This document shows positions 7,668 through 42,862 of a DNA stretch of 63,626 bases, piece by piece. The DNA comes from a bacterium (GTDB lineage Bacteria > SZUA-79 > Acidulodesulfobacterales > Acidulodesulfobacteraceae). The stretch lies in contig JAJZVN010000001.1 of assembly GCA_021845685.1 (NCBI GenBank), forward strand, positions 164,573 to 228,198, written 5' to 3'. Both the position numbers and the translations under genes were made by a program. Positions within the stretch are counted from its first letter, which is position 1; each line of letters begins with the position of its first letter. The notes beneath the pieces were generated by a model. The model searched no databases and was not told the origin of the DNA. It saw nothing but the letters and a program-made list of their open reading frames with translations.

Positions 7668-7702
7668 TAATTTTTATAAAAAAATGATATTAAAAATCAA
7701 AA

Positions 7703-9148: not shown

Positions 9149-9210
9149 GCAAAATTATTGACTAATTCTCTCCAATTTATCGGAGAGATACAGGCAATGT
9201 TATATCTAAT

Positions 9211-9384
9211 TTAAATCACCGTTAGAAATTATTAAAACTGATTCAATATATTATAAATCATATGATAAATACTGTATTCCCGCTTTCGCGGGAATGATAC
9301 CAAATAGGTTAAAATTTAAATCTTCGCAAAGTCATTCCTGAGTTGGCAGGAATCCAGAAAAATAAATTTCTAACGGTGATTTAA
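9211..9384. repeat. Family B palindromic element, copy 2
   Basis: The 20-bp terminal inverted repeats TTAAATCACCGTTAGAAATT and AATTTCTAACGGTGATTTAA are perfect. Inside are two hairpins in opposite orientation (CCCGC/GCGGG and a CCTGAG/GGCAGG unit) separated by AGGTTAAAATTTAAA. The right end is 25 nt before the ubiA ATG. Confidence 0.9.
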
Positions 9385-9409
9385 GGTATCTATTATTCTT
9401 ATATTTATT

Positions 9410-10300: not shown

Positions 10301-10505
10301 AATAAAATAATAAATTATTATTTAAATATAAGTTATTAAATCTATTGTATTATTGCATTAAATTTATAATTATTGATTCTTAACTTATAAGCAATATAAA
10401 TAATTTATAATTCACTTATATTTGATAAAATTGATAAGTATTAATGTGTAAAATGTAAATAATCAATAATAATTTAAAAATTTAAATTGAAAATATATTG
10501 AAAAT

Positions 10506-11165
10506 ATGAAAAAAAAATCGTATATAGTCGCAATTACAGGAGCCTCAGGCTCAATATACGGTTTTAGACTTTTAGAAGAATTAATAAAACATAATTTTTA
10601 TGTTTATCTGATCATTTCAAAGCCTGCCTTTAAAGTTATAAAAGATGAATTACATATGTTTAGCGGTATAAATTTAGACAATGAAAATAAAAATGGCGCA
10701 GCGAATATAAACCATATATATAATAATATATATGGCGAGATTAAATCAAAATTTAATATAGACGATAAAAATAATTATGAATATTTAGACGAAATGTTTA
10801 TAGAAGCAAAAATATCAAGCGGTTCTGCTTCGGGTATTAGAGGAATGGCTGTTATTCCCTGTTCTATGGGCAGTTTATCAAGAATTGCAAACGGGAGCTC
10901 AGGAAATTTAATTGAAAGAGCATCGGATGTTATGCTTAAAGAGCGTAAAAAGTTGATAGTCTCTCCTAGAGAAACGCCTTTAAACGATATACATCTAAAA
11001 AATATGCTTTCTTTAAGCAGATCGGGAGCTATAATATTACCTCCGATCCCTGTTTTTTATAATAAACCTGAAAGTATTGACGATATGGTTAATTTTATTA
11101 CAGGAAAAATAATGGATTCATTTGGAATTGAAAATAATATATATAAAAGATGGGGAGACCAATAA
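10506..11165 (+). CDS. ubiX: UbiX-family flavin prenyltransferase
   Basis: UbiX makes the prenylated FMN cofactor of UbiD. The N-terminal Rossmann motif TGASGSIYGFRLLEEL and the central GMAVIPCSMGSLSRIANG and KLIVSPRETPL stretches are typical FMN- and phosphate-binding regions. At 219 residues it is slightly longer than usual (about 190), because of an Asn-rich insertion at about residues 55-85. Its location between ubiA and mqnE fits MqnM of the futalosine pathway. Confidence 0.93.
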   Translation: MKKKSYIVAITGASGSIYGFRLLEELIKHNFYVYLIISKPAFKVIKDELHMFSGINLDNENKNGAANINHIYNNIYGEIKSKFNIDDKNNYEYLDEMFIEAKISSGSASGIRGMAVIPCSMGSLSRIANGSSGNLIERASDVMLKERKKLIVSPRETPLNDIHLKNMLSLSRSGAIILPPIPVFYNKPESIDDMVNFITGKIMDSFGIENNIYKRWGDQ

Positions 11166-11195
11166 CTAACTAAAATAATAAAATAATAAAATACC

Positions 11196-11422
11196 TTAAA
11201 TCACCGTTAGAAATTTCTTTTTATGGATTTCTGCCAACGCAGGAATGACTTTGCGAAGGTTTAAATTTTAACCTGTTTGGTGTCATTCTGGAACAACGGG
11301 AAATAGAAGTATAGCTTTTGATAGTTTAAATTTTAACCTGTTTGATGTCATTCCCGCGAAAGCGGGAATCCAGTATTTATCATATGCTGAATCAGTTTTA
11401 ATAATTTCTAACGGTGATTTAA
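11196..11422. repeat. Family B palindromic element, copy 3, opposite orientation, enlarged
   Basis: The same 20-bp terminal inverted repeats bound a 227-bp copy, inverted relative to copy 2. It is longer because an internal unit containing TTTAAATTTTAACCTGTTTG is duplicated. The end lies 34 nt before the mqnE ATG. Confidence 0.9.
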
Positions 11423-11456
11423 ATAAATAATAAAATAATAAAATAATAAAATAATA

Positions 11457-12530
11457 ATGACAAACTTTGAAATTATTAAAAATAAAGTTTATAATAATAT
11501 AAGGTTAAGTGATGAAGACGGTTTATTTTTATTTTCCTCGAATGATATTTTGACGACGGGGGAACTCGCAGGTTATAAAAATTTTAAAATAAATGGCGAT
11601 AATGTATATTATGTTGTAAATATTCATATTAATTATACTAATATTTGCGTTAATCAATGTGCTTTTTGCGCTTTTTACAGAAAAGAGAACAGGAAAGACG
11701 CATATGCTTTTAATATAGATGAAATAATTAATTTTATAAGGTCTTATTCTAAGGTAAATAATTTTAAAGAAATACACATCGTCGGGGGTCTTCATCCGTC
11801 TTTGCCTTACGAGTATTATCTTGAAATGGTTTCAAGAATAAAAGAAAATTTTCCTTATGCCAATATTCAAGCTTTTACTGCGGTTGAAATAGATTATCTA
11901 TCTAAAATTTCAGGATTATCTATTGAAAATGTTCTGACTGATTTGAAAAATAATGGATTAGGAAGCCTTCCCGGAGGAGGAGCCGAAATATTTAATAATA
12001 ATTTAAGAAAAAAATTATGCCCGCAGAAAATAAATTCGGAAAAATGGATAGAAATTCATAAAACAGCCCATAATCTTAATATATGGTCAAATGCATCAAT
12101 GCTTTACGGAGTGAAAGAATCTTATATGGATAGAATTAACCATTTGAAAATCTTAAGAGATGCCCAGGATATTACCAATGGGTTTCAATCTTTTATTCCA
12201 TTCGCTTTCCAGCCTAAAAATACCGCAATAAAAAATTCTAATAAAACTTCCGGTTATGACGATTTAAAAGTGATAGCCGTCTCCCGACTTTATTTAGATA
12301 ATTTTAAACATATAAAGACATTTTTTGTTAATTTAGGCATAAATCTGGCTCAGGTTTCTTTATCTTTTGGGGCAGACGATATTGACGGAACTCTCATAAA
12401 AGAAAATATATCTCATAGTGCAGGAGCCGACACGGAGGATGGCTTGAGCGTCAAAAGGCTAAGGAAAATTATTGAAGAAACCGGAAAAATTCCGATAGAA
12501 CGTGATACTTTTTATAATATTATAGTTTGA
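11457..12530 (+). CDS. mqnE: Aminofutalosine synthase MqnE (radical SAM)
   Basis: MqnE is the radical SAM enzyme that joins the enolpyruvyl benzoate precursor to SAM in the futalosine route to menaquinone. The CxxxCxxC cluster is Cys64, Cys68 and Cys71 (NICVNQCAFCAF). The motif SLPGGGAEIF at 170-179, the SNASMLYG stretch and the terminal IPIERDTFYN favour MqnE over the paralogues MqnC and CofH. Length is 357 residues, as expected. mqnA, mqnB, mqnC and mqnD are not in the window. ubiD, ubiA, ubiX and mqnE together make a partial menaquinone cluster. Confidence 0.9.
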   Translation: MTNFEIIKNKVYNNIRLSDEDGLFLFSSNDILTTGELAGYKNFKINGDNVYYVVNIHINYTNICVNQCAFCAFYRKENRKDAYAFNIDEIINFIRSYSKVNNFKEIHIVGGLHPSLPYEYYLEMVSRIKENFPYANIQAFTAVEIDYLSKISGLSIENVLTDLKNNGLGSLPGGGAEIFNNNLRKKLCPQKINSEKWIEIHKTAHNLNIWSNASMLYGVKESYMDRINHLKILRDAQDITNGFQSFIPFAFQPKNTAIKNSNKTSGYDDLKVIAVSRLYLDNFKHIKTFFVNLGINLAQVSLSFGADDIDGTLIKENISHSAGADTEDGLSVKRLRKIIEETGKIPIERDTFYNIIV

Positions 12531-12788
12531 TTAGTCTGTTTCAAGCTTTAAAACGTAAATTAAAGAGCAGATATTTTATAGTTTAATTTATTTAAATATT
12601 TAATATTAAATATTTAATATTAAATATTAAACTTTTTTTGTATTTACTAATATAATTTAAAAATTTTTAAAAAGTATTATTTTGGATTTATTAGATATTA
12701 TCATATTAAATAAAATTATGCTTATAAATTTCAATTAAGAAATATAAGATTATTTGTATAATTAATTTAATAAATTAGGAGGCAAGTC

Positions 12789-13280
12789 ATGTTTAAAACA
12801 AATGAATTTATTTTTTATCCCGGTTATGGGGTAGGAATTATTAAGGAGACCACTGTTCAAAAAGTAGGGTCGGTTGAAATTTCATTTTATAATATTGTTG
12901 TAATTGAGAACAATATGAAAATTATGGTTCCGGTGAAAAATTCCGACGAAGTAGGTTTAAGACCGTTAATTACCATGGAAGATATTAAAAAAGTGTTTGA
13001 TGTTCTTGAATGTAAAGAAGACAAACATTCTTTCGCTAAAAAAGAATCATGGAACAAAAGGTATAATGGATATAATATAAAATTGTGTTCTTCGTGCCTA
13101 TTTGAAGTAGCCGAAGTCTTAAGAGACCTTTATATACTAAAAGCCGTAAAAGATCTTTCTTTCGCTGAAAAGAAAATGTTTGAAAAGGCAAAACATTTAA
13201 TAGTTACAGAAATATCTACAGTTACCCAGAGACCATTCAGTTATGTTGAAGACCAGATTAAAAGAATTTTTATACAATAA
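12789..13280 (+). CDS. carD: CarD/CdnL-family RNA polymerase-binding regulator
   Basis: CarD-type proteins bind the RNA polymerase beta subunit and stabilise open promoter complexes. The N-terminal RNAP-interacting domain opens with the signature FKTNEFIFYPGYGVGIIKE, and the helical C-terminal half contains LCSSCLFEVAEVLRDLYI and DLSFAEKKMFEKAK. At 163 residues it is of typical size. GGAGGC lies 6 nt before the ATG. The neighbours (a PIN/TRAM protein, then gltX and ispDF) match a widespread conserved block. Confidence 0.93.
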   Translation: MFKTNEFIFYPGYGVGIIKETTVQKVGSVEISFYNIVVIENNMKIMVPVKNSDEVGLRPLITMEDIKKVFDVLECKEDKHSFAKKESWNKRYNGYNIKLCSSCLFEVAEVLRDLYILKAVKDLSFAEKKMFEKAKHLIVTEISTVTQRPFSYVEDQIKRIFIQ

Positions 13281-13496
13281 AAATTTTAGAAATATGAAAT
13301 ATGCATGAAATATGCATTATTATTTAAATTTTTATATGCTATATAAATTTAAAAATAATAATAAAAATAATAATAAAAATAATAATAAATATTAAAAAAA
13401 CTTAAATTAAATTATATAAACATTATTAAATAACTTACATAATTAATCAGTTTACTAACTAACTAACTAAAATTAACGAATTAATTTACTACTAAC

Positions 13497-14558
13497 ATGA
13501 ATTTTATAAAAAAGAAACCTATTTTTTTCGTCAGATTGTTGCTTATTTTAATATCATCTGTTTTGGGTTTTTTAATAGGCAAAGAATATTGGCATAACGA
13601 TTTTTTGGCTTACGTTGGACTCTTATTTGGGTTTACAATAGGATTTATAGTTGTTACGTTGGAAAAAAGTATGGAAAATATTTCTACAAGAAAGATATTA
13701 AGCGGGGGCATAGGATTATTTATTTCTCTTTATGTAGTTAATTATTTAACTTATAAATTATTTAAAACTTTTTTTACAAGCGGCTTATTAGGATATGCAT
13801 CTTACGCATTTATAAATTTTGTTGCGGGCTATATTGGATTAATTATAGGACTCAGGGCTAACGAAGAAATTGCAGCATTGGCTGCTAAATCATATGTTGG
13901 CGAGTCTTTGAACGGTTTACCCAAAAGAGAATTAAATTCAAATATATCTGACGAAATTAAAATAATAGACACCAGTTCTTTAATTGACGGACGCATATTA
14001 GACGTAGCGAAGACTAAATTTATAGAAGGTACATTCGTCATTCCGACATTTGTTCTGCACGAACTTCAGCATATAGCAGACTCTCAGGATCCTCTCAAAA
14101 GAGTTAAAGGCAGAAGAGGTCTTGATATGTTAAATGAAATGAGGGAAGATAAAAATATTAATATTGAATTTATAGATAAAGATTATCCAAAAATCAGAGA
14201 AGTCGATGCAAAATTGACGGCTCTTGCAAAAGAAATGGATGCGAAAATTATTACAAATGATTTTAATTTAAACAAAGTAGCTCAGGTTCAAAATATACAG
14301 GTGCTAAATATTAACGATCTTGCAAAAGCTCTCCGTCCTATTTTGCTTCCAGGAGAGACTATGAATATTCTCATTGCAAAAGAAGGAAGAGAAAAAAATC
14401 AAGGAATCGGTTATATGGATGACGGCACAATGATAGTCGTAGAAGATGCTATGAGATTAGTCGGCACCGAATTAGAAGTTATGGTCACCAGTATTTTGCA
14501 AACTTCAAGCGGAAGAATGATTTTCGCTAAAATAAATTATGACAGAGAAAGAGTTTAG
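13497..14558 (+). CDS. YacL-type membrane protein with PIN and TRAM domains
   Basis: The 353-residue protein has four predicted membrane segments in the first 120 residues. A PIN domain follows (IIDTSSLIDGRILDV, then PTFVLHELQHIADSQDPLKRVKGRRGLDML and ITNDFNLNKVA), and then a C-terminal TRAM-like domain (about 285-350). The acidic PIN residues are present, so it is probably a membrane-tethered ribonuclease, but substrates of YacL proteins are unknown. The ATG lacks a clear Shine-Dalgarno sequence. Its last 85 coding bases are copied in tandem downstream. Confidence 0.9.
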   Translation: MNFIKKKPIFFVRLLLILISSVLGFLIGKEYWHNDFLAYVGLLFGFTIGFIVVTLEKSMENISTRKILSGGIGLFISLYVVNYLTYKLFKTFFTSGLLGYASYAFINFVAGYIGLIIGLRANEEIAALAAKSYVGESLNGLPKRELNSNISDEIKIIDTSSLIDGRILDVAKTKFIEGTFVIPTFVLHELQHIADSQDPLKRVKGRRGLDMLNEMREDKNINIEFIDKDYPKIREVDAKLTALAKEMDAKIITNDFNLNKVAQVQNIQVLNINDLAKALRPILLPGETMNILIAKEGREKNQGIGYMDDGTMIVVEDAMRLVGTELEVMVTSILQTSSGRMIFAKINYDRERV

Positions 14559-14672
14559 GCAAAAACACAATATTAGAAGTTATGGTCACCAGTATTTTGC
14601 AAACTTCAAGCAGAAGAATGATTTTCGCTAAAATAAATTATGACAGAGAAAGAGTTTAGGCAAAAACACAAT
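14471..14672 (+). repeat. 101-bp tandem duplication spanning the end of the PIN/TRAM gene and the gltX start
   Basis: Positions 14471-14571 are repeated at 14572-14672 with a single mismatch (CAAGCGGAAG versus CAAGCAGAAG). The unit contains the last codons and stop of the PIN/TRAM gene plus CAAAAACACAAT. The second copy fills the whole space between the two genes, and its final AT forms part of the gltX start codon. Confidence 0.95.
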
Positions 14673-16476
14673 GCATAATAATATAGACAACGATAATAAT
14701 ATTAATAACAACGATAATATTAGAGTGCGGTTTGCACCGAGTCCTACCGGGCATTTACATATAGGCGGCTTAAGGACGGCTCTTTTTAATTATCTGTTCG
14801 CTAAAAAAAATAACGGTAAACTCATTTTACGAATTGACGATACCGATATTGCAAGAAGTAAAAAAGAATATGAAAATTCAATCATAAGCGATATGAAATG
14901 GTTTGATATAAAATATGACGAATTTTATAAACAATCCGAAAGAAAAGATGTATATGAAAAATATTTAAAAACTCTTGAAGAAAAAGGTTATATTTATGAA
15001 TGTTTTTGCACCGAAGAAGAACTTTTAAGATCAAAAGAATTGTCTATTAATCTTAAAAAGCCTTATATTTATAACGGCAGATGTCTTCATCTTAATAATT
15101 CCGAAAAAGAAAATTTAAGAAAAAAATTGGCGGATGCAGGATTATCTCCGTCAATAAGATTAAATATGCTGAAGTTAGGTTTAGAGCAGGTGGAGTTTGA
15201 AGATATTGTTCACGGAAGAGTTGCTTTTCACGTCGAACTTCTCGGAGATTTTGTTTTAAAAACTTCCGATAACAGATTTACGTATAATTTTGCTTCAATA
15301 ATTGATGATATTGATTTAGATATATCGCATATAATCAGGGGAGAGGACCATATTTCAAATACCCCGAGGCAAATATTGCTGTGCAAGGCATTGGGAAAAT
15401 CTAACCCTTTTTTTGCCCATATTTCTCTTTTATACGGAAAAGACGGCAAACTTATGTCAAAAAGAGATTTTAACGCCAATTTAGAATATTACAAAAAAGA
15501 AGGCTATTTACCTCAAGCTGTTCTTAATTATCTTGCTATAACAGGTAATACTTTTGTCGTGAATAATAATAGCAATAGAATACATAATAGCAACAATACT
15601 GATTTTAATCAAACAATACAGCCGATTATTGATGATAATAATGAAAATAATATAATATATAATGATGAAAATTTGTTAGATAAAGATAAAGATAAAGATA
15701 AAGATAAAGAAATTTTTAGTTCGATTGATGAAATGGCTCAATATTTTAACATAAAAAGAGCTAAAAATTCAGGTGCTATATTTAGCGAAGACAAATTAAA
15801 ATTTGTTAATGAAAAATGGCTTCAGTATTTAAATGCGGACACTTTAATTTCTATAATAAAAGAAAAATTTATACTGACCGGTTATATATATTTATCCGAT
15901 ATAGATAGTAATAATAACATATATGTACAAAATAAAAACGCCAATATTTCTGATGTTATGGATTGTGCAGAAAAAGAATACGGAAAAGAAGGGTTAATCC
16001 TTATTATAGATTTTTTAAAAAATGAATATAAAACGGTAAAAGAAATTATTTTAGAGCTTAATAATGTTTTTTTAAGTAAAGAAAATCCAGATTTTATTAA
16101 TTGCGGCAAGGAAATATTACAATTATTGTATATAAATTTTAATGAAATAGGCAGCAGCAGCAATAATATAAATATTAATACAAAGAAAAACGGCAATGAA
16201 TTTTGCTCTGAAATTGATAAATATAGTGATAGCAGAAATGTTAATAATAATATTAATAATAAAGAAGCAATTAATAAGAATTTTTTGGATTTTAATGAAA
16301 CAGCCGTTAAAAATGTAATACAAAAAATATCTAAAGAAAATAAAAAAAATATTAAAGATATTTATGAAAATTTTAGAATGGCTTTAACAGGAAAGACCAA
16401 TGGTCCTTCAATAATAAAAATTGCTTCATTGCTCGGTAAAGAAAGGGTTTTGAAGAAATTAAATAATTATTTATAA
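14671..16476 (+). CDS. gltX: Glutamyl-tRNA synthetase with Asn-rich insertions
   Basis: This is a class I aminoacyl-tRNA synthetase. The ATP site motif is PSPTGHLHIGG (HIGG at 30-33) and the KMSKS equivalent is KLMSKR at 260-265. At 601 residues it is over 100 longer than the normal 460-490. The excess is an N-terminal Asn/Asp leader (residues 2-16), an insertion at about 289-350 between the catalytic and anticodon-binding parts (includes a run of DK dipeptides), and an Asn-rich stretch at about 495-545. These look like surface loops, so function should survive. No strong ribosome site is seen. Whether it charges only tRNA-Glu or also tRNA-Gln cannot be told here. Confidence 0.95.
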   Translation: MHNNIDNDNNINNNDNIRVRFAPSPTGHLHIGGLRTALFNYLFAKKNNGKLILRIDDTDIARSKKEYENSIISDMKWFDIKYDEFYKQSERKDVYEKYLKTLEEKGYIYECFCTEEELLRSKELSINLKKPYIYNGRCLHLNNSEKENLRKKLADAGLSPSIRLNMLKLGLEQVEFEDIVHGRVAFHVELLGDFVLKTSDNRFTYNFASIIDDIDLDISHIIRGEDHISNTPRQILLCKALGKSNPFFAHISLLYGKDGKLMSKRDFNANLEYYKKEGYLPQAVLNYLAITGNTFVVNNNSNRIHNSNNTDFNQTIQPIIDDNNENNIIYNDENLLDKDKDKDKDKEIFSSIDEMAQYFNIKRAKNSGAIFSEDKLKFVNEKWLQYLNADTLISIIKEKFILTGYIYLSDIDSNNNIYVQNKNANISDVMDCAEKEYGKEGLILIIDFLKNEYKTVKEIILELNNVFLSKENPDFINCGKEILQLLYINFNEIGSSSNNININTKKNGNEFCSEIDKYSDSRNVNNNINNKEAINKNFLDFNETAVKNVIQKISKENKKNIKDIYENFRMALTGKTNGPSIIKIASLLGKERVLKKLNNYL

Positions 16477-26028: not shown

Positions 26029-26715
26029 CTAATGAAATAATTGAAAAAGAGTAAAAATTATAGAAATAAGTATTGCGGTATAAGGCAGCATAACTTTAAT
26101 AAACCATTTAGTAAGTCTTAATTCAAGCTGGTCAATTTTAGCATCAAATGCTATTACGATATGCTCTATATTTATTCCTAAATTTTCAGAATTTTTTTTC
26201 AGTTCAGTTTTAACGCCGTCAATTTTGGTATCTAAATTTTTTATATCTCCTGATAATTTTAAGTCTAATTTATTTATATCCTCTTTCAGTTCAGTTTTAA
26301 CGCCATCAATTTTGGTATCTAAATTTTTTATATCTCCTGATAATTTTAAGTCTAATTTATTTATATCCTTTTTCAGTTCAGTTTTAATGCCGTCAATTTT
26401 GGTGTCTAAGTTTTCAAAATCTTTTTTCAGTTCAGTTTTAACGCCGTCAATTTTGGTGTCTAAGTTTTCAAAATCTTTTTTCAGTTCAGTTTTAACGCCG
26501 TCAATTTTGTTGTCAAGTGTTTCAAACTTATTCAATAATTCTTTTTGATTCTCTTCAATTTTTTCTTCAAACTGTACTGTTATTTCGCCGCTAAAAACGC
26601 TGCTTTTTATTGCTTCTGTTAAAGCAACAGCTTGAGTTTCAGCTTGTTCCTGAGTAAATCCGCCGCCCATTAATTTTTTAGAATATTGCAGTGTGTCAAA
26701 AAATATAGTGTCCAT
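26029..26715 (-). CDS. DUF1640-like coiled-coil protein with C-terminal membrane anchor
   Basis: The N-terminus FDTLQYSKKLMGGGFTQEQAETQA matches the start of DUF1640/CCDC90-type proteins. Residues about 50-190 are a long coiled coil made of tandem units of the type LDTKIDGVKTELKKDFEN and KLDLKLSGDIKN. The repeats are also near-identical in DNA. A hydrophobic anchor (about 205-225) ends the protein. Function in bacteria is unknown. Slippage between the DNA repeats probably changes coiled-coil length. Confidence 0.75.
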   Translation of the reverse strand: MDTIFFDTLQYSKKLMGGGFTQEQAETQAVALTEAIKSSVFSGEITVQFEEKIEENQKELLNKFETLDNKIDGVKTELKKDFENLDTKIDGVKTELKKDFENLDTKIDGIKTELKKDINKLDLKLSGDIKNLDTKIDGVKTELKEDINKLDLKLSGDIKNLDTKIDGVKTELKKNSENLGINIEHIVIAFDAKIDQLELRLTKWFIKVMLPYTAILISIIFTLFQLFH

Positions 26716-27760: not shown

Positions 27761-28119
27761 GTCATTCCTGCGAAAGCAGGAATCCAGAAAAAGTATGAAA
27801 AATTATTATGTATATATCCTTAGCAGTGAGCGTAACGGTACTTTATATACGGGCGTTACTTCGGATATTATCAAGAGAGTTTATGAGCATAAACAAAAAT
27901 GTTGTTAAAGGTTTTACAAATAAATATAACATTCATCAATTAGTCTGGTATGAAATACATATCTCTGCGGAGTCGGCTATTAACAGAGAGAAACAGATAA
28001 AGAAATGGAAGAGGGCGTGGAAATTAAAATTAATAGAAAAAGAAAATCCCGAATGGATTGATTTATACGAAAGTATATGTTAATGACAAAGGCTGGATTC
28101 CTGCTTTCGCAGGAATGAC
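27761..28119 (+). mobile_element. 359-bp GIY-YIG mini-element bounded by perfect 27-bp inverted hairpin repeats
   Basis: A 27-nt unit at 27761-27787 (starts GTCATTCCTGCG, itself a hairpin) recurs as its exact reverse complement at 28093-28119. Between the two lies only a GIY-YIG nuclease gene. The element sits between two pilin genes. An identical 27-nt unit stands alone at 61001-61027, and close variants form the inner hairpins of the family B elements. A 23-nt partial tandem copy follows the right end (28126-28144). Confidence 0.75.
27795..28083 (+). pseudogene. GIY-YIG family endonuclease, frameshifted
   Basis: The first 37 codons read MKNYYVYILSSERNGTLYTG and on to VYEHKQK. The rest of the protein continues in another frame from VVKGFTNKYNIHQLVWYE to ESAINREKQIKKW and EWIDLYESI. 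Removing one A from the AAAAA run near 27896-27900 restores a single protein of about 95 residues, the usual size of small GIY-YIG (UvrC N-terminal-like) nucleases. The cause could be mutation, a sequencing error in the A-run or frameshifting. The core VYI, LYTG, Arg and Glu positions are conserved. Confidence 0.8.
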
Positions 28120-31435: not shown

Positions 31436-32146
31436 ATGGATCCTTTAAAAAAATTTCATAATGAAAATTGGCATACCCCTGAGGGCAGGCTTGTCCGGGA
31501 ATTTGTTTTCGGCATAAATGATGGGCTTGTAACGACAATCGGCTTTGTTGCAGGCGTTACAGGGGCATTGGTAAATACAAAAATAGTTCTTATGTCCGGT
31601 ATGGCGGAAGTTGTTGCAGGCACGATATCAATGTTTTTCGGAGCTTATCTTGCAACAAAATCGCAAAATGAATTTTATATGAAAGAAATAAATAGGGAAA
31701 AAAGAGAGATAAAAGAAGATCCTGCGCATGAAGAAGAGGAGATATATGAAATATATCAGGATAAAGGTTTTACCGATGAAGAAATAAAACCTATAGTAAA
31801 AAGATTAATGTCGGATAGAAAGCTGCTTCTTAATTTTATGGTAAAAGATGAGCTTGGAATAGGAAATAATTCTCATGAAAATCCGATAAAATTAGCTTCC
31901 TACACGGGCGTTTCCTTTTTAGCGGGAGGTATCCCTCCTTTAATTCCTTATTTTTTTATAAAGAATTCAACTATTGCCGTAATTATTTCTATTTTGTTTT
32001 CAATTTTAGTGCTTATTTTTACAGGTCTTGCAAAATCAAAAATAACAAAAACCAATCCGTTTAAAAGTGCTTTAGAAGTTGTTATTATTGGCGGTATCGC
32101 CGCTACTATAGGGTTTATTGCAGGCAGATTTATTGCTTACGTTTGA
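31436..32146 (+). CDS. VIT1/CCC1-family iron or manganese transporter
   Basis: This is a five-helix membrane transporter. FGINDGLVTTIGFVAGVTGA in the first helix is the family signature. The acidic cytoplasmic segment after helix 2 (EINREKREIKEDPAHEEEEIYEIY) supplies the metal-binding Glu residues. The family exports cytosolic Fe2+ or Mn2+. Unlike MbfA it lacks a ferritin-like domain; notably, such a domain occurs on the FNT protein 2.4 kb downstream. Confidence 0.88.
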   Translation: MDPLKKFHNENWHTPEGRLVREFVFGINDGLVTTIGFVAGVTGALVNTKIVLMSGMAEVVAGTISMFFGAYLATKSQNEFYMKEINREKREIKEDPAHEEEEIYEIYQDKGFTDEEIKPIVKRLMSDRKLLLNFMVKDELGIGNNSHENPIKLASYTGVSFLAGGIPPLIPYFFIKNSTIAVIISILFSILVLIFTGLAKSKITKTNPFKSALEVVIIGGIAATIGFIAGRFIAYV

Positions 32147-33784: not shown

Positions 33785-34546
33785 TTTTTATTTGTGAGAT
33801 TATGAGCGTAATAGCAATGTGTATTAAATTAATAGATTAATATGATTAATATTTTATTAGTTTAAATTGAATCATATTGAATATTGAATTAAAATATTTA
33901 TATGATATTATTATATTATTAGATTAATATTAATATAATGTAATATTTAATTTAATTTCTACCAAATATATATGCAATATTTACCTAATATTTATATGAT
34001 AACTACATAATAACAATGAACTATTAACGTTTAATAACGTTTAAATAATTTTATAATGAACCCATAAATCAAGACAGGTTTTTAAGAATCTAACTTCCTA
34101 AATTGAAAAAATCTGTTAAAATTTAATTGTTATTAATTTTATTGAAAATTAAAATAATTTAACATTAAAAATGGGTGCAGTATATTTATAAAAAAGTTTA
34201 TAAAAATAATATACTAAAATGACTTAAAAGTCAATCAAAGATAATTTCTTACACTTGAATTACAATTTTTATGTGATACAATAAAAAAAGATTTAGAGAT
34301 ATAGATTTTTTTATATTATATTTTATATATTATTATATTATAAAGATATTTAATAAAAATTATTTAATATTTTTATTCTGTTTATAAAGATATTTAATAA
34401 AAATTATTTAATATTTTTATTCTGTTTATAAAGATATTTAATAAAAATTATTTAATATTTTTATTCTGTTTATTCTGTTTATTCTGTTTATTCTGTTTGT
34501 TTTATTCTATCTGTTTTTATTTAATTTATTTAATTTATGGAAAATT
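33785..34546. other. Long AT-rich gap with minisatellites
   Basis: No gene was seen in 760 bp between the divergent MFS and ferritin-FNT genes. The first 550 bp are low-complexity A/T. The last 200 bp contain the 44-bp and 9-bp tandem repeats listed separately. Confidence 0.6.
34339..34497 (+). repeat. 44-bp tandem repeat (three units) followed by a 9-bp tandem repeat
   Basis: Units beginning TATAAAGATATTTAATAAAA start at 34339, 34383 and 34427 and are identical. The last is followed by TATTCTGTT three times (34471-34497). The array ends about 50 nt before the ferritin-FNT start, so copy number could alter the leader. Confidence 0.95.
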
Positions 34547-35914
34547 ATGGAAAACAGAAACATCTTAAACAAAGAACAAATAATTGAAATCCTGCAAAAA
34601 TTTTTAAATGCCGAAATTGCAGGGAGAGATCTTTATCTTCAGCAATCAAAAAATATTAACGATCCGTCGCTTATTCAAACATTAAAATCATTTGCATCAA
34701 CGGAAAGCGGTCATATTATCAATATAAGAGATAAAATAACCGAACTTGGAGGGAAGCCTCACTCCATCAGTGAAGTTAGCAACATTCAAAAAGGACTGAG
34801 CGATGCATCCTATCAAGTTTCAGCCCCCTTGGATATGCTTAGAATAGATTTAAAAATTGAAGAAACTGCGATTAACGATTATACCGCGGCTACTGAAATA
34901 ATTGAAGATGAAGGCGTTAAAACATTAATAGAAAATAATCTTGCCGAAGAAATTCATCATTCTTTATATTTATCTAAAAAAATAAATGAGATATTAGAAA
35001 AAACAAGAAATAAAATTGGCGCTATTAGCAGTATTGAAAAGCCGGGCGGAAAGGAACCTTCCGAAATATTTAAGGCATCTGTTGAAGTTGGATTATTAAG
35101 GTTAAACAGAAGCTGGCTTGAAATGTTTATGTCGGGTTTAATTGCAGGTATGAATGTCACTTTCGGTATTATTGCTTCTTCTTACGTTGCCGGAGCGACG
35201 GAACCTTTAGTCGGAGGGCCGACTTCTAAGATATTAGGAGCTTTATTCTTTCCGATAGGTTTTATGTTTTTGCTAATAGGAAAAAGCGAACTTTTTACAG
35301 AAAATTTTTTACTTCCGGTTACTACCGTTTTAGCGAGAAAAACTAAAATAAGGAGGTTATTCAAATTATGGGGATTAACTTTAGCCGGAAATATGGGAGG
35401 TATTTTTCTATTTGCCTTAATTATTGCAAGTTCTTTAGGATTACTATTACCTGTATTTGTTGTTAATCATATTCATACAGTAGCATATAGTTATATGTCA
35501 AAATCTCCTTATATTATGGTGCTTAGCGGTGTTTTTGCAGGGTGGCTTATTACCCTTATGACATGGCTTTTAATTGCTTCAAACGGAACATTGGCTCGGA
35601 TAATTATAATTTGGGCAGTGGGTTTTATGATTTACTTAGGTTCTTTCAGCCACATAGTTGTCGCCTCTTCAGAAATATTAATATCTATAAATTCAAATTC
35701 AGGGATGTCATATATTCCATGGTTGATAAAATTTGTTCCGTTGACTATCATCGGAAATATGATAGGCGGTTTAGTCTTTGTTACAGTATTACAATATTTG
35801 CAGATATTGCATGCAGGCGGAAAGACGGAGATGAGTTTATATTCGTCAAGCGAACTTGATATGCTTAGTAAAGCAGTTGACCGAAGAATTGAAGATGTTG
35901 AAGATACACTATAA
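34547..35914 (+). CDS. Fusion of a ferritin-like domain with an FNT-family anion channel
   Basis: Residues about 8-150 are a four-helix ferritin/rubrerythrin-like domain with candidate ligands in FLNAEIAGRDLY, STESGHI, IEETAINDY and AEEIHHSLY. Residues about 190-440 form a six-helix formate/nitrite transporter fold (FMSGLIAGMNVTFG, then GKSELFTENFLLPV and LAGNMGGIF). FNT channels pass formate, nitrite or hydrosulfide. It lies just upstream of the sHdr genes, so a sulfur anion is a reasonable guess. Ferritin-like domains fused to VIT1 are known; the FNT fusion is unfamiliar to me. Confidence 0.88.
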   Translation: MENRNILNKEQIIEILQKFLNAEIAGRDLYLQQSKNINDPSLIQTLKSFASTESGHIINIRDKITELGGKPHSISEVSNIQKGLSDASYQVSAPLDMLRIDLKIEETAINDYTAATEIIEDEGVKTLIENNLAEEIHHSLYLSKKINEILEKTRNKIGAISSIEKPGGKEPSEIFKASVEVGLLRLNRSWLEMFMSGLIAGMNVTFGIIASSYVAGATEPLVGGPTSKILGALFFPIGFMFLLIGKSELFTENFLLPVTTVLARKTKIRRLFKLWGLTLAGNMGGIFLFALIIASSLGLLLPVFVVNHIHTVAYSYMSKSPYIMVLSGVFAGWLITLMTWLLIASNGTLARIIIIWAVGFMIYLGSFSHIVVASSEILISINSNSGMSYIPWLIKFVPLTIIGNMIGGLVFVTVLQYLQILHAGGKTEMSLYSSSELDMLSKAVDRRIEDVEDTL

Positions 35915-35951: not shown

Positions 35952-36026
35952 TGATATATTATAAAAATATATTATAAAAATATATTATAAAAATATATTA
36001 TAAAAATATAATATAAAAATATAATA
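35952..36026 (+). repeat. 13-bp AT tandem repeat
   Basis: About five units of ATATTATAAAAAT lie between the FNT fusion gene and the family B copy 5. Confidence 0.8.
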
Positions 36027-36067
36027 TTATATAGATATAATATAAAGTAGATATAAATAATATTAAT

Positions 36068-36331: not shown

Positions 36332-37009
36332 ATGGAATATGATGAAAACGGAGTTAGTATTGTCTCTAATGAATTCAAAAAAGAAATTTTTGAAGAAGCA
36401 AAAAAAGATTTTAGATATGAAGAGTATGTAAAAGGATGTCTTAATTGCGGAGTGTGTACGGGAGGTTGTCCGCCTCACAGGTTTTTTGATTTTTCTCCGA
36501 GAATGGTTCTTCAAAATTGCAAATCAAATGACCCTGAACTTGTATGGGGAATGATGGACGAGTATGTCTGGGCTTGTTTTCAGTGTTTTACATGCGCTAT
36601 GATTTGTCCTTTTTTAAATAATCCGGGCGGCGTTATTGCAATATTAAGAGAAATTTCTGTAAGAAGAGGGTTCGAATCTGCAAAAAAAGTTTTAAAACCA
36701 TACTCCCGCGTTCTTTTGAAATTAACCGCTTATGGAAATCAATTATCTCCGGATATGATTCAGCCTGATTTTTTCCCCGATTGGGGACCGCATATAGTAT
36801 ATGCCTCTCAAGATTTGCCGTTAAAAAGAAAAGCTATTCCGATGCCTACGCTTCAAGTTACAAATCTTGCATGGGATGTTGCTCCAGAAGCTATGAAAGA
36901 ACTTTATACTATTTTTGAAGAAGCAGGTGTGTTTAAAATTATAGAAGTGGTAGACCCTGCATTATATGAAATAATTCAGGATATTGTTGATGATGTTAGA
37001 AGCGAATAA
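36332..37009 (+). CDS. hdrC1: sHdr complex iron-sulfur subunit C1
   Basis: This HdrC-type ferredoxin-like protein of the sulfur-oxidising heterodisulfide reductase system binds two [4Fe-4S] clusters: Cys36/39/42/46 (CLNCGVCTGGCPP) and Cys82/85/88/92 (CFQCFTCAMICP). It would relay electrons within the complex. The gene order hdrC1-hdrB1-hdrA-hyp-hdrC2-hdrB2 matches the sHdr clusters known from bacterial sulfur oxidisers. AGGAGG precedes the ATG. Confidence 0.88.
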   Translation: MEYDENGVSIVSNEFKKEIFEEAKKDFRYEEYVKGCLNCGVCTGGCPPHRFFDFSPRMVLQNCKSNDPELVWGMMDEYVWACFQCFTCAMICPFLNNPGGVIAILREISVRRGFESAKKVLKPYSRVLLKLTAYGNQLSPDMIQPDFFPDWGPHIVYASQDLPLKRKAIPMPTLQVTNLAWDVAPEAMKELYTIFEEAGVFKIIEVVDPALYEIIQDIVDDVRSE

Positions 37010-37146
37010 GTGTGAATAAGATTAATTTTTTAGATACAATATTTATTATATAAACATTGTAAACTTAAACTGACATATAATAATAGTATTAATGTATAAT
37101 TTTTTTTGAAATACTATATTATTTTAATTAATCGGGAGAACATAAT

Positions 37147-38343
37147 ATGGCTATTGAAATCAGAAACAGATTGGGACTTGCCGATGTTAAATCAGATTTT
37201 AGACATATTGCAGGCAGAAAAATTGAAAATATTCATGAGGAGCTTTTAGAACTGGAAGCAAAAGGAGAAATAAAAGTAATTCACATTACGGATAAAAACA
37301 AACCGATTGAAGCCGAAACCTTATTTGGACGGAAAAAGAAAATACCTACAACTAAATTGTGGCATCATAAATCTTGCGGTCAATGCGGCAATATTCCGGG
37401 TTATCCTGTATCTCTCTTATGGTTTATGAATAAATTCGGCACCGAATATATAGATGAAAAAAATCAAACATCTTGTACGGCATGGAATTACCACGGGTCT
37501 GCTACTTCTAATCCTGTCGGTCTTGCCGCCGTTGCAGTCAGAAATTTTCACAGGGCTTATGAGTTAGGACTATTTCCGTTGATACATTGCGCAACCTCTT
37601 TTGGCGATTATAAAGAAATGCGCAACCTTCTTGTTGAAAATAAAGAATTAAGAGACGAAGTAAGAAGAATAATGCATAAAATAGGCAGAGAGCTTATACT
37701 TCCTGAAGAAATTGTTCATTATAGCGAATGGGTTCACGTTATGAGATTTGAAATTGCAAAATTAAAAAAATATGACTTAAGCAATATTATTACTACGGTC
37801 CATCCTGCTTGCCACTGCTATAAAATGATTCCTGAAGATTGTATTTACGACAAAGATATTTACGCAGGAAAAAGAACTGCTGTTTCGACGGGCGTTGCTC
37901 TTGCTTTGGGAGCTCAGGTTGCCGATTATTCAACATGGTACGATTGCTGCGGGTTTGGATTCAGACATATTTTAACGGAGAGAGAAGCTTCCAGATCGTT
38001 TGTAATGGACAGAAAAATAAGACCTATGGTACGAGAAGCTAATTCCGATGTTTGTATAACGCAAGATACGGGATGCACCACAACTCTTGATAAAAATCAA
38101 TGGATAGGAAAAGCCATGGGTTATACCGAACAGGTTCCCGTTATGGCGGATGTTATGTTTGCTGCGCTTGCCTGCGGAGCGGATGTCTATAAAATAGTGC
38201 AGCTTCAATGGCATACGACAGATTGGAGACCGTTATGCGAAAAAATGGGAATTGACTGGAAAAAGTCGGAAGAAGAATATAAAGCTTATTTAGAACAACT
38301 GAGAGCAGGCGGAAAACCGGAAAATTTATATGAATACGCATAA
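37147..38343 (+). CDS. hdrB1: sHdr complex subunit B1 (CCG-domain iron-sulfur protein)
   Basis: HdrB-type subunits hold noncubane [4Fe-4S] clusters at the disulfide-handling site. Cys-rich stretches HKSCGQCGNIPG, QTSCTAWNYHG, HPACHCYKM, WYDCCGFGF and QDTGCTTT fit the CCG-domain pattern. The 398-residue length fits sHdrB1. It is 137 nt after hdrC1 and has its own GGGAG site. In the sHdr model the complex oxidises sulfane sulfur bound to a lipoate-binding protein; no such carrier gene is in the window. Confidence 0.87.
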   Translation: MAIEIRNRLGLADVKSDFRHIAGRKIENIHEELLELEAKGEIKVIHITDKNKPIEAETLFGRKKKIPTTKLWHHKSCGQCGNIPGYPVSLLWFMNKFGTEYIDEKNQTSCTAWNYHGSATSNPVGLAAVAVRNFHRAYELGLFPLIHCATSFGDYKEMRNLLVENKELRDEVRRIMHKIGRELILPEEIVHYSEWVHVMRFEIAKLKKYDLSNIITTVHPACHCYKMIPEDCIYDKDIYAGKRTAVSTGVALALGAQVADYSTWYDCCGFGFRHILTEREASRSFVMDRKIRPMVREANSDVCITQDTGCTTTLDKNQWIGKAMGYTEQVPVMADVMFAALACGADVYKIVQLQWHTTDWRPLCEKMGIDWKKSEEEYKAYLEQLRAGGKPENLYEYA

Positions 38344-38546
38344 TTAATTATGATTTAATAATTAAATTTAACAACATATAAATTAATACTACTATAATAA
38401 TAGGCTAATACTATTATAATTTGTATGATAAATTAAACAATACAATAATTAAACAATATATATAAAATATATAATAGTTTATTATTAATCATAACTATTT
38501 ATTTACATTTTAAATATAATTTATATTTAAAAAAAGGAGGCATTAT

Positions 38547-39590
38547 ATGGCTGAAAATATTCTTGTTATCGGCGGCGGTCCCGCAGGGCTTCATGCCGCT
38601 ATTGAACTTGCTGAGTTAGGCGTTAATGTCAGCTTAGTAGAAAGAGATACGTTCTTAGGAGGAAATCCAAAAAAATTTAAATATAAGTATTTATTCCCTG
38701 ACCTTCAGCCTGCCGACGATGTTATAGGCGAATTAATCAGACGTGCGGAATCCAACGGCAATATAAAAAAATACCTTTCGGCAAATGTAGAAAGCTTTAA
38801 AGAAGAAGGCAAAAAATTTAATGCCGTGATAAAATCGGATTCCGGTTCCGAAACTAAAACATTTGATTCTGTGATAGTTGCAACGGGTTTTGAGCATTTT
38901 GACCCTGCGAAAGATTCTAAATATTCTTATCAATTATTTGATGATGTTATAGATATTAAAGATTTAGAAAGAATGATGGGCGAAGAAAATTTTAATAGAC
39001 CTTCAAACGGAAAACCTCCTAAGAATGTGGCTATAATTTTGTGCGTCGGTTCAAGAGACAGACATGTAGGAAATCAATATTGTTCAAGGGTATGCTGCAC
39101 CGTGTCGGTTAAACAAGCCATAGAGATTAGAGAGCATTTTCCTCAAACAGAGGTTTATATATTTTATATGGATATAAGAACCTATGGTTTTTATGAAGAT
39201 TTATACTGGAAAGCTATGGAAGAACACGATGTTCAGATAGTAAAAGGCAGAGTTGCCGAAATTACCTCAGGACCTGATAATACGGTAATATGCAAAGGCG
39301 AAGATACTCTATTAAGAGGACCTTTTGAAATACCTTTTGATATGGTCGTTTTAGCTTCGGGAATGGAAGGCGGACCTCAATCACCTGAAATGGCAAATAA
39401 ATTAGGCATAGAACTTGACGAGCATGGATTTTTAAAATACGCGAATGTAACTCTTTCGCCGTGCAAATCAAATAAAGACGGAATATTTCTGGCGGGAGCT
39501 TGCACTGGACCTAAAGCGATTGCAGATGCAATAATTGAAGGCGGAGCTGCCGCTATGAATGCTTATATATATGCTAAGAAAAATTCTTAA
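38547..39590 (+). CDS. hdrA: sHdr complex flavoprotein subunit A
   Basis: This FAD-binding core subunit has an N-terminal dinucleotide site VIGGGPAGLHAAIELAELG and the cluster-binding CVGSRDRHVGNQYCSRVCC region at about 170-188. The end GIFLAGACTGPKAIADAI is also typical. At 347 residues it is the compact sHdrA form rather than the longer methanogen HdrA. AAGGAGG lies close to the ATG. Confidence 0.9.
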   Translation: MAENILVIGGGPAGLHAAIELAELGVNVSLVERDTFLGGNPKKFKYKYLFPDLQPADDVIGELIRRAESNGNIKKYLSANVESFKEEGKKFNAVIKSDSGSETKTFDSVIVATGFEHFDPAKDSKYSYQLFDDVIDIKDLERMMGEENFNRPSNGKPPKNVAIILCVGSRDRHVGNQYCSRVCCTVSVKQAIEIREHFPQTEVYIFYMDIRTYGFYEDLYWKAMEEHDVQIVKGRVAEITSGPDNTVICKGEDTLLRGPFEIPFDMVVLASGMEGGPQSPEMANKLGIELDEHGFLKYANVTLSPCKSNKDGIFLAGACTGPKAIADAIIEGGAAAMNAYIYAKKNS

Positions 39591-39798
39591 GTTTATAATT
39601 TATTAAGTTTGTATATGATTATATTAAAAAAATATTTTATTGTTTAGATTTAGATTTTGTTTAAATTATATTAAATTAACGCTGGTTTAAACAATGTTTA
39701 AATATTTAAAGGTATATAGCTAATAGCGGCGGTTTAAAAAATTTTCATTATTATTTGTTATTTCATTTTTTATATTTTATAAATTTTATTAACACTCT

Positions 39799-40527
39799 AT
39801 GCCTTATATATTAAAAAATAATAAAATAGATTCAAGATATGAAATTAAATTTTTTGAAATAATCAGAGAAAATTTAAATAATGAAAAATTAAATGAACTT
39901 TATATGCTTTTAGACAAAAAGTCTAATATAATAAAAGATTTTATTAATAGCTTAAACTTAAATAATCCGGATTTTGAATATATTTTATCTTTAGTATTTT
40001 CAATACGAAGGCATAAGAAAAAAATATTAGACACGATAAGCGATAAAAATTTAATTTCGGCATTCAATGTTTTTAAGGGGAAAAAATCTCAAGAAATAAA
40101 GGTGGGGAAATTTCTTGAGATTTTAGACTACGATGATGTTGTAGTCAAGAGAGACCTTGCGTTTGAAATTTTGCATTTTCTTGAACCTGAAAATAATATT
40201 TTATGGACGACATGGATTTATAAACAGGATAACGGAACAGGTTCGCTGCCGTATATGGCTGATTTTTTAAAAAGGACATGGGACGGAAATGCATATATAA
40301 TGCCGTTTACATATAGAGAAATGCGGGATGAAATAGATTATCTTTATGAGCTTGCATATAAAAATGGATTTAATATTAAACCTCCGTTCGGAACTGATAT
40401 CTTGCTGGCTTATATGTATGCAGACTATGTTTTTAAAATGGTTTATGCCGAATCTAAATCTTTATCTGTAGGTGTTCCCGACGGATATACTTTGATGAAA
40501 AAATTATTAGGAATTGAAAAAATATAA
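39799..40527 (+). CDS. Conserved sHdr-associated protein (hyp position)
   Basis: This 242-residue protein has no cysteine motif or membrane segment. It occupies the exact place of the conserved hypothetical gene between hdrA and hdrC2 in sHdr clusters. Recognisable stretches are DDVVVKRDLAFEILHFLEPE and DNGTGSLPYMADFLKRTWDG. The N-terminal third is Asn/Lys-rich and probably variable. Function is unknown; position suggests a dedicated partner of the complex. No strong ribosome site was seen. Confidence 0.7.
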   Translation: MPYILKNNKIDSRYEIKFFEIIRENLNNEKLNELYMLLDKKSNIIKDFINSLNLNNPDFEYILSLVFSIRRHKKKILDTISDKNLISAFNVFKGKKSQEIKVGKFLEILDYDDVVVKRDLAFEILHFLEPENNILWTTWIYKQDNGTGSLPYMADFLKRTWDGNAYIMPFTYREMRDEIDYLYELAYKNGFNIKPPFGTDILLAYMYADYVFKMVYAESKSLSVGVPDGYTLMKKLLGIEKI

Positions 40528-40747
40528 TGCAAATAATGCAAATGTTTTATTAAACCTAAATACAGATTTAGGATATAATATTTTAGATTCGCGCCTGTGT
40601 GGTGGGAATGACTCAGCATAAATTTAATAAAACTCAAAGTTGAAGTTGCATTATCTATTGACAATGAGCGGAATGATTTAGTGTAAATTTAATATATTAA
40701 TCAATTTAATTTAATCAATTTAATTTTGCAATCAGATTGGAGGCATT

Positions 40748-41530
40748 ATGGCTGAAGAGCATAATAAAAATAGCGTAAGACCTGTTGCTGAAAAAGGCGA
40801 ACATATAATAGCAAGGCATCTGATAGACGACGATGCAATTAAAGAAGAAAAAAATCTTGTTATTGACGGGGTGGATGTCTCAGGCAGGTGGAATACATTT
40901 ATTGAAACAAGAGTCGATTCCGAATATGACAGAAGTTTTTTTGATGAAATTCAAAAAACAGTTGTCGGTTCAAGAATTAACAGATGCTGGCAATGCGGAA
41001 TGTGTACGGCAAGCTGCACTGTAACCCCGTTATATAGAAGATTTAACCCTCGCTCCTTTATATATATGATGCAGCTTGGCAATTTAAAGCAATTAAAAAA
41101 ATATGTAGATGTTGCATGGCGCTGCGTAGGATGCTATAAATGTTCACAAAGATGCCCTAAACAGGTTAATCCGGCAGAAATGATGGAAGCGCTTGCTCTT
41201 TTAATAAAAAAATATTTTCCCGAAGAGATTAAATCTAAACATCAATTAATAATTGATGAAGAAGTTAAAAAAATATATGAAGGTATGATATTAGGACATG
41301 GCAGATTAGATCTTGCAAATCTTCATACTTCTGCTATGAGAAAAATGGGTAAAACTTCTGAACTGTTGAGCGATAAAGATGAAAGAGGCGCTATTTTTAA
41401 AATGATGAAAGACGGTAGGGCATTGTCCGTTTTAAGGCTCGGAAAACCACACAAATGGCATAAATCAAAAGACGCTATTGATAAATACCTACAAAATACG
41501 GGAACTCTTGAGCAGGAAAGCCAAGTATAA
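40748..41530 (+). CDS. hdrC2: sHdr complex iron-sulfur subunit C2
   Basis: This second HdrC-type subunit has two [4Fe-4S] motifs: Cys80/83/86/90 (CWQCGMCTASC) and Cys126/129/132/136 (CVGCYKCSQRCPK). The 260-residue protein has an N-terminal extension of about 70 residues before the first motif. GGAGGC lies 6 nt before the ATG. Confidence 0.87.
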   Translation: MAEEHNKNSVRPVAEKGEHIIARHLIDDDAIKEEKNLVIDGVDVSGRWNTFIETRVDSEYDRSFFDEIQKTVVGSRINRCWQCGMCTASCTVTPLYRRFNPRSFIYMMQLGNLKQLKKYVDVAWRCVGCYKCSQRCPKQVNPAEMMEALALLIKKYFPEEIKSKHQLIIDEEVKKIYEGMILGHGRLDLANLHTSAMRKMGKTSELLSDKDERGAIFKMMKDGRALSVLRLGKPHKWHKSKDAIDKYLQNTGTLEQESQV

Positions 41531-41610
41531 GAAAGCATAACAACAAGTATTAAAATTTTATATAATTATAATTATTTTATAAATAATATAAATATAACAA
41601 TATAAATAAT

Positions 41611-41821
41611 CGATACAACAATATTAATAAATAATTAATATAAAGATATAACGATACAACACAATATTAATAAATAATTAATATAAAGATAAACCGATAC
41701 AATAATATCAATAAATAATTAATATAATGATAAACCGATACAATAATATCAATAAATAATTAATATAAAGATATAACGATACAACACAATATCAATAAAT
41801 AATTAATATAACGATATAACA
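41611..41821 (+). repeat. About 42-bp tandem repeat (five units) between hdrC2 and hdrB2
   Basis: Units beginning CGATACAA start at 41611, 41652, 41695, 41736 and 41777. Each contains AATAAATAATTAATATAA. Small changes distinguish them. There are no spacers, so it is a minisatellite and not a CRISPR. It makes the gap between two genes of one complex almost 400 bp. Confidence 0.95.
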
Positions 41822-41938
41822 GTAAGACGGTATGTAATTTTGTATTTGTATTAGATTATTATTGGATTATGAAGTTAGATTAAAAATAATATAATATAAT
41901 AATAAAATTAACTATAAAACAATGAGGTGATATATAAT

Positions 41939-42862
41939 ATGGAAACTTTAAAAGAAAATCAGGCTGCGTATTATCCCGGATGTGCTTTATTAACTATTGA
42001 CAGAGCTTATAACAATAGCTCTAAATTGGTTTCAAAAAAAATGGGCATAGAATTGGTGGAAATACCAGATTATAATTGCTGCGGTATCGGAGAAATGAAA
42101 TCTAAAGGCGCCGTGTCTTTATATCTGCCGCTGAGAAATATGATGATTGCTAAATCTAAACTCGGAAGCAAAGACCTTGTTATGGCATGCTCCGTCTGCT
42201 ACCATGAATTTACAAGGTCTATTACAAGAGTAAAAGAAAATAAAAAACTTCTCGATGAGGTTAATTTAATTTTAAAAGATGCAGACGAGGAAGAATATGC
42301 TCCCGAAGGCGAAGCGCGTCATATTCTGGAGTTTTTATACAATGAAAAAGGTCCCGACGAAGTTAAAAAAAACACGGTTAAACCATTAAAGGGGATAAAG
42401 GTTGCTCCGTATTACGGCTGTTTATATACAAGACCTTCAATGTATACTTTTGCCGATAAAAAACCAAACTTGGATAATTCCGAAAAACCGCATTTTATGC
42501 ATGATTTTCTTGAAAGCATGGGTGCTGAAATTGTTAGTTACGGTAACGAAGTTCAATGCTGCGGAGGCAGAAATGTAGTTCAGGACGAAGAAACTTCATT
42601 TACTTTATGCTCTCAAACACTTTCAAAAGCAAAGAAAGCAGGAGCTGATTTTCTGGTAGTGATTTGTCCAAAATGTGCAGGGGCTTTAGATGTAAATCAG
42701 CCGAAAATTGTTGAAAAATATGGGGAAGATTCAGAGCTTCCCGTTGTATATCTTACCCAGCTGATGGCATTGGCTTTTGGTTTTTCAGGAAAAGATGCTC
42801 TATTTAGCGATATGATATCAAATCCGTTAAAAGTATTAAAAGAAAAAGGAGGTTTTATTTAA
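41939..42862 (+). CDS. hdrB2: sHdr complex subunit B2 (CCG-domain iron-sulfur protein)
   Basis: This is an HdrB-type subunit of 307 residues with two CCG regions: YYPGCALL with YNCCGIGEM, and YYGCLYTRP with VQCCGGR and CPKCAG. The ATG at 41939 was chosen over an in-frame GTG at 41927 because GAGGTGA (41924-41930) is correctly placed 8 nt before the ATG. The rubrerythrin gene follows after 2 nt, so the two are co-transcribed. Confidence 0.88.
   Translation: METLKENQAAYYPGCALLTIDRAYNNSSKLVSKKMGIELVEIPDYNCCGIGEMKSKGAVSLYLPLRNMMIAKSKLGSKDLVMACSVCYHEFTRSITRVKENKKLLDEVNLILKDADEEEYAPEGEARHILEFLYNEKGPDEVKKNTVKPLKGIKVAPYYGCLYTRPSMYTFADKKPNLDNSEKPHFMHDFLESMGAEIVSYGNEVQCCGGRNVVQDEETSFTLCSQTLSKAKKAGADFLVVICPKCAGALDVNQPKIVEKYGEDSELPVVYLTQLMALAFGFSGKDALFSDMISNPLKVLKEKGGFI

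Follow-up and report, generated by a model that had tools for sequence, protein, structure and literature searches.

A ferritin-like diiron domain fused to a YfdC-type FNT channel in relatives of Candidatus Acididesulfobacter and in two other phyla

What would a ferritin-like domain do on a membrane channel? The question is raised by one gene (positions 34547-35914, plus strand) in a 63,626-nucleotide stretch of DNA from a member of the Acidulodesulfobacteraceae, here called the window. The gene is an uninterrupted open reading frame of 455 amino acids with orthologues elsewhere, and it is the sole FNT gene of its genome. Searching it against Pfam with hmmscan returned two domains. The first, Ferritin (PF00210), spans amino acids 13-148 with an E-value of 2.8e-10 and scores 40.7 bits, above its cut-off of 24.5; the second, Form_Nir_trans (PF01226), spans amino acids 173-417 with an E-value of 3e-47 and covers positions 1-239 of the 240 in the profile. 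An AlphaFold2 model of the whole protein, built on an alignment of 18 fusions (mean pLDDT 77.7), has ferritin-like helices at residues 9-36, 40-66, 94-118 and 122-158, then a disordered linker and the FNT fold. We divide the protein into a four-helix domain (residues 9-158; 34571-35020), an interdomain linker (residues 154-172; 35006-35062; pLDDT <50 at residues 154-168) and a channel domain (residues 173-417; 35063-35797). With a pTM of 0.53 and a linker of such low pLDDT, the monomer model leaves the mutual orientation of the two domains undefined.

The same architecture is encoded in 22 of the 29 other genomes of the family (relatives of Candidatus Acididesulfobacter), in eight of the nine genomes of a small phylum (that of G049) and in four of 297 genomes of a third phylum (that of G150), in which one carrier contig is titled Thermodesulfobacteriota. 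The carriers in other phyla were recovered by a scan of GTDB contigs and follow-up searches. All 18 aligned fusions match both an FNT model and a Rubrerythrin/Ferritin model. Because the architecture recurs in the family and in two other phyla, the fusion is neither a chance event nor a chimeric contig, and an assembly chimera was also ruled out by its occurrence in dozens of independent genomes. Thus the ferritin-like/FNT fusion proposed in the initial annotation is confirmed by Pfam, AlphaFold2, Foldseek and its taxonomic spread. A nearest named relative, Candidatus Acididesulfobacter diazotrophicus (L052), has a protein 96% identical to that of the window; Candidatus Acididesulfobacter is an acid mine drainage group of facultatively anaerobic autotrophs with dsr genes (PMC6776010). 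In a sample of 386 genomes, 357 of them from outside the family, the only non-family genomes with matches to both domains were G049, G160 and G163, all from the small phylum. The architecture is rare but apparently old, since three phyla carry it and few genomes of this sample do. A tblastn search of plasmids with the ferritin domain gave no match. No report of an FNT or YfdC protein fused to a ferritin or diiron domain was found in the literature searched, which lay mostly outside subscription journals. Both domains come from known families; their union in one protein is real, rare and apparently unreported.

The N-terminal domain is predicted confidently when modelled alone (AlphaFold2; pLDDT 89.9, pTM 0.84). 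Foldseek with this model retrieves bacterioferritin- and Dps-type proteins, with a best E-value of only 1.9e-4, and a profile of the domain matches many bacterioferritins (best E 1.9e-22). Its four-helix bundle and its E, ExxH, E, ExxH ligand set place it in the ferritin-like diiron carboxylate superfamily. The predicted ligands, all on the plus strand, are E23 (34613-34615), E53-x2-H56 (34703-34714), E105 (34859-34861) and E135-x2-H138 (34949-34960), and the two halves of the domain have the same spacing, with Tyr at +7, Glu at +30 and His at +33 from the first Glu. The tyrosines are Y30 (34634-34636) and Y112 (34880-34882). All six ligands and both tyrosines are invariant in the 18 fusions, which include proteins only 33-37% identical. 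In an alignment of 15 of the domains, the distant ones only 22-28% identical to that of the window, 15 of about 150 columns are invariant (L16, E23, Y30, A50, E53, H56, L67, P71, D96, R99, E105, A108, Y112, E135 and H138), and six out of six predicted ligands are among them; by our own hypergeometric estimate this would occur by chance with a probability of about 3.5e-7. The ligand set and the two tyrosines are, judging from these alignments, under strong selection, and the domain probably binds metal. Loss of the ligands in homologues, which the initial annotation had named as evidence against its proposal, is not seen in the aligned fusions, and a degenerate ferritin-like domain was ruled out because all ligands are invariant. 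The domains of bacterioferritins, mini-bacterioferritins and rubrerythrin-like proteins (1nf4, 2vzb, 9qq4, 9viw) have the same ligand set and bundle; the window domain differs from these in belonging to a membrane channel, and on an FNT pentamer it is unlikely to assemble into a standard cage of 24 or 12 subunits. In one genome of the small phylum the fusion gene (L064, 8001-9283, on G049:C10) is frameshifted inside the ferritin part, and the sister gene in L060 is intact. The ferritin domain of this gene is only apparently truncated, as the missing part was found in another frame; the frameshift is either a sequencing error or a recent break.

Such conservation suits an enzyme as well as a sensor. 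The domain could be a tethered local oxidase or peroxidase of the rubrerythrin or Bfr type, sitting at the inner mouth of the pore without gating it, and either protecting the pore or consuming an oxidant or substrate. Besides the fully conserved ligands and tyrosines, all 18 members give rubrerythrin matches, and Y30 has the E+7 spacing of bacterioferritin Tyr25. In addition, a separate rubrerythrin gene lies at 42865 beside the sHdr-like operon of the window, and the L064 fusion is surrounded by an oxidative-stress cluster. However, the protein has no rubredoxin domain or obvious electron donor, and it is not evident why a peroxidase would require an FNT pore. We regard this reading as rather unlikely.

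Turning to the channel, Foldseek with the whole model retrieves PfFNT, HSC, FocA, NirC and LciA at target-normalised TM-scores of about 0.8-0.87. The complete PF01226 match, the FNT fold, and a central pore histidine (H369, FocA H209; 35651-35653, plus strand) and omega-loop T251 that are invariant in the fusions establish membership of the FNT family. This family comprises formate (FocA, FdhC), nitrite (three NirC groups) and hydrosulfide (HSC) channels as well as two YfdC groups without known function, and the largest cluster, YfdC-alpha with 361 sequences, has no assigned substrate (PMC5525234). At the diagnostic positions of that study (86, 92, 93, 172, 202, 209 and 254 in FocA numbering), the residues of the window protein are K, E, N, G, I, H and F, which is the YfdC-type pattern (K246, E252, N253, G332 and F396 in the window protein). 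The YfdC signature combines a charged residue at 86, Glu at 92, Asn at 93 (in the alpha group), Gly at 172 and an aromatic residue at 254. Its omega loop, KSELFTEN (residues 246-253; 35282-35305, plus strand), has a basic residue at 86, Glu at 92 and Asn at 93, as in YfdC-alpha. The FocA/NirC/HSC signature (Gly 86, Ser/Gly 92, Asn 172, Phe 202, Asn 254) is replaced in the window protein by K, E, G, I and F. Distant fusions keep E92, N93 and G172; in them, position 86 is Q, H or R, and position 254 is I or L. The central constriction is F235-I362-H369-V372 in the window protein and F-L-H-V or F-M-H-V in distant fusions.

A maximum-likelihood tree of the FNT part agrees with the residue pattern: a starred branch parts the fusions and YfdC-type proteins from classic FNTs. 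The FNT domains of the fusions are not monophyletic in the best tree, and monophyly is not rejected (p-AU 0.168), so that there may have been one or two fusion events. Residues and tree thus place the FNT part in the uncharacterised YfdC branch, apart from the branches for formate, nitrite and hydrosulfide. The initial annotation was right about the fold, as PF01226 and Foldseek indicate, but its label of a formate/nitrite/hydrosulfide channel overstates the case for a protein with the signature of a branch that has no assigned substrate. The YfdC subfamily, which includes the uncharacterised YfdC of E. coli (TCDB 1.A.16.4.1), shares E92, N93, G172 and a residue other than Gly at 86 (PMC5525234; PMC10971958), and the window protein also resembles the subfamily in lacking a Glu before the pore His and in grouping with YfdC-type proteins in the tree. 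On the other hand, the YfdC N-terminus is only 42-55 residues long where the fusion has a whole ferritin-like domain, and in the fusions position 75 is kept as Phe, not Tyr, and position 88 as Glu. At another locus, a YfdC-type FNT gene has a beta-carbonic anhydrase-like protein (recognised by eye) encoded directly upstream (L026, 709-2286), and the best sequence match in the PDB is the bicarbonate channel LciA. Bicarbonate is therefore a candidate substrate of the YfdC branch.

A ferritin-like domain on a transporter has a precedent in MbfA, the membrane-bound ferritin (NCBIfam NF045676). MbfA also has an N-terminal cytosolic ferritin-like diiron domain on a membrane transport domain, and this domain has ferroxidase activity and is required for iron transport (PMC7762939). 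For transport MbfA has VIT1; the window protein carries an FNT channel in its place, lacks a VIT1 domain and gives no match to MbfA at E<=0.01. The distinction from the MbfA type drawn in the initial annotation holds, in that the two proteins follow parallel plans with FNT where MbfA has VIT1. The shared plan raises the possibility of iron export, in which the ferritin-like domain would work as a ferroxidase or gather iron, and the FNT would pass iron or a different metal, not an anion. Both the iron-rich acid mine drainage habitat (PMC6776010) and the pore-facing Glu that YfdC FNTs have at FocA position 92 (E252 in the window), which is unusual for an anion pore, would fit (PMC5525234). But the hydrophobic F-I/L/M-H-V constriction is a poor path for metal cations, and the functionally characterised FNTs that the same study names carry monovalent anions. 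Moreover, the FNT fold is unrelated to VIT1, and a separate VIT1-family iron/manganese transporter is already nearby (31436-32146, plus strand; PF01988, E 6.7e-70). This transporter is without a ferritin-like domain, as had been noted; it lies beside the fusion in some genera only and was not seen there in the genus-g6 loci. An export role of this kind is improbable.

The neighbourhood had suggested a sulfur anion as the substrate. The fusion gene is followed on the same strand by an sHdr-like operon with the gene order hdrC1-B1-A-hyp-C2-B2 (36332-42862), so the sHdr genes reported beside it are present. Within the family, the fusion lies between an opposite-strand MFS gene and this operon at nearly every locus long enough to tell. 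Even where the MFS gene is absent and the upstream genes are changed (L049), the adjacency of fusion and hdr genes is kept. This constancy, together with the transport of HS- by HSC members of the FNT family, would suit a channel that is gated by the diiron domain and passes a sulfur anion for the sHdr pathway. However, the whole 15-kb neighbourhood is syntenic in the family, pilus genes included, so the adjacency carries little weight, and the intergenic DNA is unconserved and reaches about 420 bp in the genus of the window. Three genomes of the family (G007, G008 and G010; L072-L074) have hdrC immediately after the MFS gene and lack a fusion gene there. Their lineages fall among carriers in the hdr tree, in which deep forks are poorly resolved, making loss of the fusion the simpler reading. 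Outside the family, the operon is not a conserved neighbour, and window-type HdrB1 had no strong match in the eight carriers tested from the two other phyla.

The genome of the window also has a second Hdr cluster, without an FNT and with HdrB1 and HdrA 45-48% identical (L118). It spans 6226-15743 of G000:C191 and comprises an ArsR-like gene, hdrC1-B1-A-C2-B2, two LbpA-like genes and radical-SAM-like and lipoate-ligase-like genes, those other than hdr having been identified by reading the sequences. Genes for LbpA are described as inevitably associated with sulfur-oxidising Hdr systems (eLife 2018, PMC6067878), and none for an LbpA/GcvH-like protein was noticed among the window ORFs read. Given sHdr without the fusion in three genomes, carriers without window-type HdrB1, lbpA at the second cluster and a channel of YfdC instead of HSC type, the inference from neighbouring sHdr genes to a sulfur anion is not supported: there is no obligatory link of the fusion to sHdr, and a sulfur-anion channel is very unlikely.

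Nor does formate metabolism account for the distribution. Formate dehydrogenase scored above cut-off in the genome of the window and in G002, G003, G009 and G018, and within group 3 in G146, G150, G153 and G215; it was absent above cut-off from the carrier G013 and from G147-G149, G151, G152 and G154-G156. A link to formate was rejected because the presence of this enzyme does not track with the fusion, and the fusion is thus not confined to genomes with formate genes; such confinement is what the initial annotation had said would count against it. A link to DsrAB was likewise rejected, as the carrier G003 has no NIR_SIR match and the non-carrier G010 has one. The findings point to a sulfur anion no more than to formate, nitrite, bicarbonate or another small acid.

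We tentatively favour, at somewhat less than even chances, a YfdC-type channel for small acids to which a cytosolic diiron redox or iron module is coupled, probably in a regulatory role; its main rivals are a tethered oxidase/peroxidase and metal export of the MbfA kind. Both FNT termini are cytoplasmic (PMC5572259), so the diiron domain should sit on the cytosolic side, at the inner opening of the pore. By analogy with the family, we infer a pentameric channel with one bacterioferritin-like domain at the cytosolic N-terminus of each subunit, facing cytosolic Fe2+, O2 and H2O2. Oxidation or iron occupancy of the diiron site would change the state of the domain, which via the linker could alter the flow of a small monovalent acid or anion through the pore; control of the channel would then be part of an iron or oxidative-stress response. 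The coupling of the diiron site to the pore, like the substrate, is a guess. Gating is plausible from the sequence features, and in its specific form, in which oxidation of the diiron site opens or closes the pore and ties small-acid flux to O2, peroxide or iron, it is possible but doubtful.

Several observations argue for the favoured reading: both halves look functional, with the six diiron ligands among the invariant columns and the pore residues kept in all fusions, and the architecture is kept in three phyla. Elsewhere, YfdC-type FNTs are fused to another redox domain, DsbA/Thioredoxin_4, at the N-terminus in Halostagnicola larsenii (L107, 3506-5029) and at the C-terminus in Salinibacter ruber (L110, 3908-5482), or lie beside stress genes encoding DUF892 (L111) and catalase/GST (L116). 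The L064 fusion has genes for ferritin, desulfoferrodoxin, flavin reductase and rubredoxin clustered around it, which is suggestive only, as the sister locus L060 has a different context. Some classic FNTs likewise have a response-regulator receiver domain in the corresponding N-terminal position (L096, 1465-2733, minus strand; L098; L099, 1159-2430, plus strand; L100; L103). These fusions occur in several genomes of the third phylum; the L099 protein combines PF00072 and PF01226, and its kind of channel looks phosphorylation-controlled. They resemble the window protein, as do the DsbA/thioredoxin fusions, in having an extra regulatory or redox domain at an FNT terminus, and they differ in sitting on the classic branch. 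The receiver domains indicate that N-terminal control modules on FNTs arose more than once. Pairing of DUF892 with the FNT is seen in Caballeronia and missing in two Paraburkholderia loci, and was for that reason set aside as main Rosetta-stone evidence.

Against the favoured reading, no redox partner is conserved, gene context outside the family is not conserved, and the floppy linker speaks against tight gating. The linker, which is about 10 residues shorter in distant fusions and thus flexible and variable in length, would also suit a purely structural joining of a membrane-anchored iron binder to an ordinary FNT channel without functional coupling. We consider this quite improbable, since the fusion has been kept over large divergence in three phyla with both active sites intact; in addition, no split of the exact pair was noticed on unsystematic inspection of the 386 genomes.

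If metal or redox gating is true, the protein would be the first such sensor-gated FNT, and this would be the first function tied to the YfdC branch; we know of no earlier FNT gated by a metal or redox sensor. The deeply conserved natural diiron fusion offers a direct handle on the role of YfdC-alpha, pointing it toward iron or oxidative stress and away from fermentation. The principle of MbfA, a ferritin-like domain on a transporter, would widen to an unrelated channel fold, and redox control of an FNT would become tractable to experiment.

The sequence upstream of the fusion gene has no conserved block that would mark a regulatory footprint, only AT-rich repeats. A search of Rfam gave no match. 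Perfect or near-perfect AT-rich tandem repeats flank the gene at 34338-34473, 34460-34498 and 35954-36027, with periods of 44, 9 and 13; relatives have a shorter 44-bp array or none. Elsewhere in the window, a short ORF resembling by eye the C-terminal part of a GIY-YIG nuclease (27808-28083) is inserted between pilin-like genes. A coiled-coil-like ORF on the minus strand (26029-26715) consists of several near-identical repeats (DTKIDGVKTELKKD...) and possibly encodes a variable repeat protein.
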